A stretch of 64,000 nt of DNA from Rhodobacteraceae bacterium HLUCCA12 (lineage in GTDB: Bacteria > Pseudomonadota > Alphaproteobacteria > Rhodobacterales > Rhodobacteraceae): assembly GCA_001314715.1 (NCBI GenBank), contig LJSV01000001.1, positions 310,001 to 374,000 on the forward strand, written 5' to 3'. This document shows positions 54,350-55,200 of the stretch, piece by piece. How positions within the stretch are numbered: the stretch's first letter is position 1; each line of letters begins with the position of its first letter. The translations under genes were made by a program, and so were the position numbers. Below the pieces are notes generated by a model, which saw only the letters and a list, made by a program, of their open reading frames with translations, was not told the origin of the DNA and made no database searches.

Positions 54350-54396
54350 TCCGTGCCGGGGCAGGGCGGTTGGCTGCGCTGACGGCGAGCCAATGA

Positions 54397-54422
54397 AAAA
54401 CCCCGGTTCTGGCCGGGGTTTT
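54397..54422. terminator. bidirectional rho-independent terminator
   Basis: AAAACCCCGG (54397-54406) and CCGGGGTTTT (54413-54422) form a 10-base stem with a 6-base loop. T-runs result on either strand, so it serves zapA on the plus strand and grxD on the minus strand. Confidence 0.85.
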
Positions 54423-54450: not shown

Positions 54451-54810
54451 TCAGGCGTTGGCTTCGCGGATCTTGTCGGCGGCGTCCTTGTCATAGTGGA
54501 TGCCCTTGGCATCAAACAGCTGATCCAGCTCGCCCGACAGGGTCATTTCGGTGATGATGTCGCAGCCACCCACGAATTCGCCCTTGACGTAAAGCTGCGG
54601 GATGGTCGGCCAGTCCGAGAAATCCTTGATCCCCTGGCGAATCCCCTCGTCGGCGAGGACGTTCACGTCGGCGAAATCGACGCCCATGAAGTTCAGCACC
54701 CCGGCAACGCGGCTGGAAAACCCGCATTGCGGCATGGTCTTGGTGCCTTTCATGTAAAGCACCACGTCATTCTTTTCGATCGTGTCGCGGATCTGGTCCT
54801 GTGCGCTCAT
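54451..54810 (-). CDS. grxD: monothiol glutaredoxin (Grx4 family)
   Basis: This 119-residue glutaredoxin has the monothiol active site CGFS (29-32, in TMPQCGFSSRVAG) and the glutathione-binding motif WPTIPQLYVKGEFVGGCDI. Such proteins carry [2Fe-2S] clusters and pair with BolA proteins in iron sensing and cluster transfer. BolA lies two genes upstream on the same strand. Its ATG overlaps the stop of a 49-codon membrane microprotein gene. Confidence 0.96.
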   Translation of the reverse strand: MSAQDQIRDTIEKNDVVLYMKGTKTMPQCGFSSRVAGVLNFMGVDFADVNVLADEGIRQGIKDFSDWPTIPQLYVKGEFVGGCDIITEMTLSGELDQLFDAKGIHYDKDAADKIREANA

Positions 54811-54956
54811 CTTGGTCCTCTGTCATTTGTTCGCACCGGAATGCGAAGCCTTCGGCCCCCGCCCGGCGTGTTGTCGTCATCGTCATCATGGCCTGCGCGC
54901 ATCATGGTCAGCGCAAGCGCCGCCAGTACGATCAGGCCGAGGATGCCATAAATCAT
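54807..54956 (-). CDS. 49-residue membrane microprotein between bolA and grxD
   Basis: This short open frame runs from ATG 54956 to the stop at 54809-54807 on the minus strand. It encodes 49 residues: MIYGILGLIVLAALALTM as a single membrane helix, then AGHDDDDDNT and a basic Arg-rich tail. It starts one base after the bolA stop and its own stop overlaps the grxD start (ATGA). Such exact packing between two co-working genes is strong evidence of real translation. No classical Shine-Dalgarno is seen, so translation may rely on coupling from bolA. The function is unknown; a membrane anchor or partner for the BolA-Grx4 complex is one possibility. Confidence 0.68.
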   Translation of the reverse strand: MIYGILGLIVLAALALTMMRAGHDDDDDNTPGGGRRLRIPVRTNDRGPR

Positions 54957-54957
54957 G

Positions 54958-55200
54958 TCAGTCCGGGGCCTTTGTGGTCAGTGCAAGCGCGTGCAACTCG
55001 CCCTGGCTGCCATCCATCTTGCCCTTCAGGGCGGCATAGACCGCGCGTTGCTGCTGCACCCGGTTCAGGCCGCGAAAGCTTTCGTCGATGATTTCGGCGG
55101 CGTAATGGTTGCCGTCGCCCGCGAGATCGGTGATCGTGACCTTGCCCTGCGGGAAACTTTCGCGAAGAAGGGTTTCCAGTTGCTCTGCCGTGATGGCCAT
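54958..55200 (-). CDS. bolA: BolA/IbaG-family protein
   Basis: This 80-residue BolA-like protein starts MAITAEQLETLLRESFPQG and contains the family segment VQQQRAVYAALKGKMDG and a conserved His (GELHALAL) used for cluster ligation with Grx4. It has no clear BolA Cys. It lies 68 bases after purL on the same strand; the purL-bolA-grxD order is widespread in alphaproteobacteria. Confidence 0.93.
   Translation of the reverse strand: MAITAEQLETLLRESFPQGKVTITDLAGDGNHYAAEIIDESFRGLNRVQQQRAVYAALKGKMDGSQGELHALALTTKAPD

Follow-up and report, generated by a model that had tools for sequence, protein, structure and literature searches.

A predicted membrane microprotein encoded between yrbA and grxD, and small membrane proteins recurring in the same gap across Rhodobacteraceae

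Within the window, by which we mean the whole 64,000-nucleotide stretch of Rhodobacteraceae bacterium HLUCCA12 DNA analysed here, a short gene is packed between a BolA-family gene and a glutaredoxin gene, all on the minus strand. The BolA-family gene (54958..55200, minus) encodes 80 amino acids matching Pfam BolA (1.8e-12); among solved structures its closest relative is YrbA (5nfk, E 1.5e-20), and it scores only 18.7 bits against the NCBIfam equivalog for E. coli BolA, for which the cut-off is 137. Therefore, we name the pair yrbA-grxD: the earlier note’s “bolA” was right as to the family, and the type is that of YrbA/IbaG. The other neighbour, grxD (54451..54810, minus), encodes the monothiol CGFS glutaredoxin Grx4 of 119 amino acids (NCBIfam TIGR00365, 150.5 bits against a cut-off of 117.1), and its CGFS site is read as MPQCGFS in the translation. 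Passages of published work describe how BolA and IbaG of E. coli each pair with Grx4/GrxD as [2Fe-2S] heterodimers (PMC10051749), how GrxD supplies ErpA under low iron (PMC11327457), and how genes of the BolA and Grx families frequently cluster (PMC7538681). A promoter scan found no promoter-like site, and a terminator scan gave one plus-strand terminator-like site, which is under the shuffle mean. By eye, an intrinsic-terminator look-alike can be seen just 3' of grxD at 54396-54422 (minus), AAAACCCCGG-CCAGAA-CCGGGGTTTTT; it is absent from the scan output, perhaps because its stem swallows the T run.

The gene between them occupies 54807..54956 (minus, stop codon included) and was recognised from the reading of the frame, its homologues and the selection acting on it. 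Translation of minus-strand 54956..54807, from an ATG start to a TGA stop, gives a 49-residue protein, MIYGILGLIVLAALALTMMRAGHDDDDDNTPGGGRRLRIPVRTNDRGPR. A single base (C) separates the TGA of the BolA-family gene (54960-54958) from its start, and at its 3' end the stop codon and the grxD ATG (at 54810) overlap as ATGA, exactly as the earlier note had described. The three parts claimed there, a helix, an acidic patch and a basic tail, can all be read in the frame, the hydrophobic stretch being residues 2-19. Codons 2-19 (54900..54953, minus) encode an uncharged hydrophobic helix that is predicted to be transmembrane: the best 19-residue Kyte-Doolittle mean is 2.37, and AlphaFold2, run with three sequences, models one helix over residues 2-21, with a mean pLDDT of 93 over residues 1-10 and of 81 over residues 11-20, followed by a tail of low confidence and without secondary structure. 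Beside the membrane lies the DDDDD patch of codons 24-28 (D24-D28; 54873..54887, minus), and codons 31-42 (54831..54866, minus) carry a conserved basic motif, PGG-G-RR-L-R-I-P-V-R. The last codons also contain a Shine-Dalgarno-like site for grxD, found by sequence match (GAGG; 54817..54820, minus). The protein is thus predicted, and in our judgement very probably, a single-pass membrane protein. Single-helix membrane proteins are commonly oriented by charge according to the positive-inside rule; since no charge precedes the helix and R20 stands behind it, the N-terminus likely faces out and the C-terminus the cytosol.

The window copy and 16 homologues form what we call family A, defined by a place in the bolA-grxD gap, one N-terminal helix, a run of aspartates, PGG and RRxRVxVR; all 17 lie directly between yrbA and grxD. 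In the alignment, L6, D25, D26, P31, G32, G33, R35 and R36 are invariant, D27 is kept in at least 90% of the members, and the first 18 residues are uncharged in 16 of the 17. Carriers are 9 of the 18 genus genomes (the window’s own included) and eight further genera, presence counts being lower bounds because a limited number of candidates was scored in each genome. All eight homologues found elsewhere in the genus sit in the same yrbA-grxD gap, and the other genus matches to the microprotein, at E 0.1 or worse, were counted as chance. The earlier note had asked whether the frame is broken in close relatives: it is intact in the closest one, G013, but among the 17 other genomes of the genus only 8 keep the microprotein, while 6 have another ORF in the gap, 2 have no convincing ORF there (G003 and G012) and 1 has no grxD match (G016). 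A ten-member profile searched against 394 genomes of the family, about one per genus, gave 16 matches, of which the window’s own and eight others (at least 9 of 394 genomes) lie between yrbA and grxD; the remaining seven were weak, had neither neighbour and were counted as chance. At the level of the order (390 genomes), 28 matches reached an E of 0.01 or better. Three belong to family A carriers already known; of the 25 weak remaining ones, only that of L168 is located in the yrbA-grxD gap, and this match resembles family B, described below. In the class search (289 genomes), the window’s own genome was the sole one in which family A was found. One of the three genomes in G057’s genus carries it, and the genus of G192 consists of a single genome. 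Family A is therefore rare and patchy, and at least four changes are needed to place it on a weakly resolved tree of YrbA and Grx4. A 44-amino-acid ORF, the first in the gaps of L067 and L249, has a helix, RMRHDN and VPVRITNKRKG; it is family A-like without the aspartate run and is possibly a diverged member.

Staying open over 49 codons is in itself unremarkable, as 16.5% of mononucleotide shuffles do so, and this is what speaks for a chance frame in GC-rich sequence. We nevertheless give that explanation a practically negligible probability and reject it, because the frame is conserved as a protein at the same place in 17 genomes, bears the signature of codon positions and shows a substitution pattern specific to it. 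Between the window and G013, dN is 0.15 and dS 0.82 (dN/dS about 0.18). Synonymous changes are close to saturation in many pairs. Over the 36 genus pairs, the pooled pN/pS is 0.46 (highest single pair 0.75), or 0.55 when columns with a majority of D are left out; over all 136 pairs of the 17 members it is 0.59. In the genus, pN/pS is 1.05 and 1.67 for the other two sense frames and 1.25, 0.61 and 1.61 for the antisense frames, where the 0.61 is taken as a mirror of third-position change. Differences at codon positions 1, 2 and 3 amount to 0.343, 0.244 and 0.546 in the 36 genus pairs. By these substitution patterns, the microprotein frame is under purifying selection, and it is almost certainly a real gene.

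The spacing of the three genes suggests how the microprotein may be translated. Across family A, its start lies from -4 to +13 bases from the yrbA stop (+2 in G360), and 14 of the 17 members share a four-base overlap with grxD at their end, while two stop 3 bases and one 35 bases short of it. Shine-Dalgarno-like matches span 0-4 bases in front of the microprotein and 3-7 in front of grxD; that of grxD is the longer in 15 members, and in two, of which the window is one, there is a tie. The 4-base overlap in 14 of 17 members, taken together with the longer match for grxD, suggests that the microprotein is translated by coupling between yrbA and grxD. It could then be supposed that translation alone matters, bringing ribosomes to grxD whatever the peptide; the overlaps and, in the window, the location of the grxD site within the microprotein’s last codons would fit. 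We disfavour this explanation as very improbable, since the invariant residues listed above are internal and distant from that site, and in 55 of 103 loci grxD follows closely behind yrbA and needs no such coupler.

The latter count comes from a survey of 103 distinct yrbA-grxD gaps, made up of the best 80 Grx4 loci nearest to the window’s, the genus loci and loci picked by profile. It started from 106 loci, of which L131 (a short contig piece without a Grx match) was dropped and L114 and L130 were duplicates; L129 was not included. Two Grx4 genes, in records titled Exiguobacterium profundum (L064) and Enemella evansiae (L076), are 87% and 85% identical to the window’s, from which these records look misnamed or contaminated. 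The gap measures less than 110 nt in 55 loci and 110 nt or more in 48. In 40 of these 48 large gaps there is a sense ORF of transmembrane grade, by which we mean a Kyte-Doolittle 19-mean of at least 1.6; antisense ORFs of this grade occur in 3. Without the seven profile-picked loci, the sense count is 33 of 41. The purL-bolA junction of these loci served as a control: it could be read in 86 cases, 44 of them reached 110 nt, and 3 of the 44 hold a sense ORF of transmembrane grade. Many of the 44 contain another ORF, of about 150-210 amino acids, so that the comparison is not purely with small ORFs. Fisher’s test between the two junctions gives p 1.6e-14, or 8.9e-12 without the picked loci, values that ignore shared ancestry and serve as a guide only. 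On the weakly resolved YrbA and Grx4 tree, at least 18 changes between an occupied and an empty gap are needed.

For comparison with the class, 29 loci besides the window’s own were read from 48 class genomes with a Grx4 match, and a BolA gene stands just upstream of Grx4 in 27 of them. One of the 27, L187, belongs to the same family as the window and has small ORFs of transmembrane grade in a gap of 455 nt. Outside the family, 24 of 26 gaps are shorter than 110 nt; that of L192 holds a 29-amino-acid non-membrane ORF, and that of L193, of 1,012 nt, a 308-amino-acid ORF reaching the transmembrane threshold. Small membrane ORFs in this gap therefore look particular to Rhodobacteraceae as judged against these 26 outside loci, and their recurrence there is a stronger result than family A itself.

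Clustering the gap ORFs of 40 amino acids or more by BLAST gave several groups, with A and B joined by single linkage. Family B has a helix, RGSxPGxGxH, a Gly-rich stretch and a VPxDPQEYAKxFxPK end. It occurs in at least 45 of 295 family genomes; loci were available for 30 of the 45 matches, and all 30 loci read lie in the yrbA-grxD gap, including that of L245, whose match is in the gap while a motif filter found no B ORF there. Family E, with a helix, RPL and LGMEATD, occurs in at least 25 of the 295 genomes, and 24 of its 25 loci are in the gap: 22 by script and two at contig ends, L263 and L269, by manual reading, L268 having neither neighbour. Homology between A and B is unsupported by profile comparison in spite of the BLAST cluster (hhalign probability 16%, helix region only), and none was detected between A and E; the B and E profiles align over the helix only, with a probability of 75%. 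Genus-mates of the window carry further types, namely a hydrophobic protein of 98-107 amino acids (G002, G004, G009 and G017) and a 48-amino-acid protein with PIPVR (G001 and G011). Several ORFs stand in a row in some gaps, and B and E occur together in those of L249, L252 and L267, which does not look like simple replacement. In L269 (G261), one 97-amino-acid gap protein is matched by both the B and the E profile and looks like a hybrid, with an E-like front, EAWLKRNKHRPLS, and a B-like end, VVKDPQEYAKAMMPK. Long family E members end in ...DDETYAARYHRA or similar, like the DPQEYAKRFVPK of B. Ten gap proteins and a further two of family B were compared with Pfam, and five proteins drawn from B, C and E with NCBIfam, in both cases with no family above cut-off; with the family A results given below, none of the gap proteins tested reaches a Pfam cut-off, and none of A, B, C and E an NCBIfam one.

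This diversity could mean that the gap is a permissive nursery, a translated and coupled slot that tolerates small transmembrane ORFs, whether newly arisen or passing through, with retention in only some lineages. The several sequence types, the 18 or more changes of state and the tandem ORFs agree with such a picture. The next junction, with 3 of 44 large gaps, does not behave in this way, however, and neither the purifying selection on family A nor the recurrence of B and E in 45 and 25 of 295 genomes is what mere tolerance would lead us to expect. We regard this explanation as improbable. The evidence bears out the general claim of the earlier note, that a real membrane microprotein is tied to the bolA-grxD pair: all 17 members found are in the gap, purifying selection acts on the frame, and the slot is repeatedly taken by other small membrane proteins.

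Based on these findings, we propose a mechanism for the microprotein. We lean slightly towards the view that it acts on YrbA/Grx4, and, more tentatively, that it does so as a membrane adaptor or anchor for the YrbA-Grx4 complex; the earlier note’s idea, a peptide that tethers or regulates the BolA-Grx4 [2Fe-2S] complex, is likewise a proposal. We prefer this role because the microprotein is position-locked, tightly spaced and conserved, and because other membrane proteins occupy the same slot. In the proposed scheme, a single-pass inner-membrane microprotein would be made by coupled translation between yrbA and grxD. Its helix (residues 2-21) would span the membrane, and, judging from charge, the D-patch, PGG and the RRxRVxVR tail would lie in the cytosol. 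The tail may then bind YrbA and/or Grx4, by which the YrbA-Grx4 [2Fe-2S] complex would be placed at the membrane, and clusters or iron-status signals could be handed to membrane-bound clients. In other Rhodobacteraceae, a comparable job might be done by other small membrane proteins in the slot (B, E and others), and many would do without. Since 55 of 103 gaps are shorter than 110 nt, YrbA-Grx4 works without such a gene. These short gaps count against a strict requirement, as does the lack of a clear tracking residue: YrbA and Grx4 residues that follow family A give clade-like signals only, for example Grx4 Y19, present in 14 of 16 proteins with family A versus 28 of 87 without.

Another possibility is that the microprotein is a real membrane protein with a different membrane partner or process, its operon place reflecting shared regulation, for example by iron or redox. 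We consider a merely co-regulated membrane function of this kind nearly as likely as the YrbA-Grx4 adaptor. The many empty gaps are in its favour, as they indicate that YrbA-Grx4 is independent of the microprotein, and some gap proteins, such as the 98-107-amino-acid type, seem by eye to carry more hydrophobic stretches than a single anchor would call for. An envelope connection is also on record: passages of PMC10051749 tie V. cholerae IbaG to the cell envelope and place E. coli ibaG in an operon with murA. On the other hand, the near-exclusive position (17 of 17 for A, 30 of 30 read for B and 24 of 25 for E), together with the exact overlaps, points to something beyond shared regulation.

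If the adaptor reading is extended to the whole family, the YrbA-Grx4 carrier of Rhodobacteraceae would be membrane-linked: exchangeable small membrane subunits of the operon (A, B, E and others, singly or combined) would bring the [2Fe-2S] complex to the inner membrane, the role having been taken over by unrelated proteins in different lineages. We hold this broad model to be rather unlikely. Still, small membrane proteins recurring between iron-sulfur genes are a hint that the YrbA-Grx4 machinery may work at the membrane in Rhodobacteraceae, and a membrane partner encoded within the operon, if true, would point to a definite place for further search. Several small membrane protein families filling a single slot within one bacterial family offer many natural replicates.

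Database comparison gives family A little likeness to described proteins. The window microprotein has no Pfam or NCBIfam match at E up to 10, and the 17 members together give only weak matches, by one or two members each (best E 0.0069 and 0.011), none above cut-off. PHROG 7843, a phage family of unknown function, is a weak profile match in all 17 members (best E 2.2e-5); for the window copy (E 9.2e-5, residues 8-41) the matched part takes in the helix together with the acidic run and may therefore be due to composition. A phage or plasmid origin has no tblastn support: among 50,697 phage records the window protein has no match with an E of 10 or less, with the low-complexity filter on, and among plasmids it has one meaningless Streptomyces piece at E 4. 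A comparable plan is seen in a Rhodobacteraceae membrane protein (L149:1282-1683 and L153:1321-1686) encoded directly downstream of a nusB-like gene. In several Rhodobacteraceae, L149 and L153 among them, it has the same tail plan, a hydrophobic stretch followed by DDDDDD, GPGG or PRGG and IPVRV; it differs from the microprotein in being longer, with more hydrophobic stretches by eye, and in lying elsewhere in the genome. Because the copy in the window’s own genome (L180:1501-1824) is without the D6-PGG tail, we leave the relation between the two tails as a lead.

The flanking genes belong to the same families as the BolA/YrbA(IbaG)-Grx4 [2Fe-2S] heterodimer systems of E. coli and the Fra2-Grx3/4 system of yeast. 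In the titles, abstract beginnings and passages of BolA-Grx literature that were available, with few subscription journals among them, no such membrane partner or third operon gene was found. Small one-helix proteins such as AcrZ, CydX and KdpF serve as regulators or accessory subunits of bacterial membrane complexes, and their partners are membrane proteins. The microprotein is like them in size and in having one helix, whereas the genes beside it in the operon encode soluble carriers of clusters. As a kind, small accessory membrane proteins are thus known; one that is encoded within a BolA-Grx operon and undergoes such turnover is, as far as we could see, apparently new.
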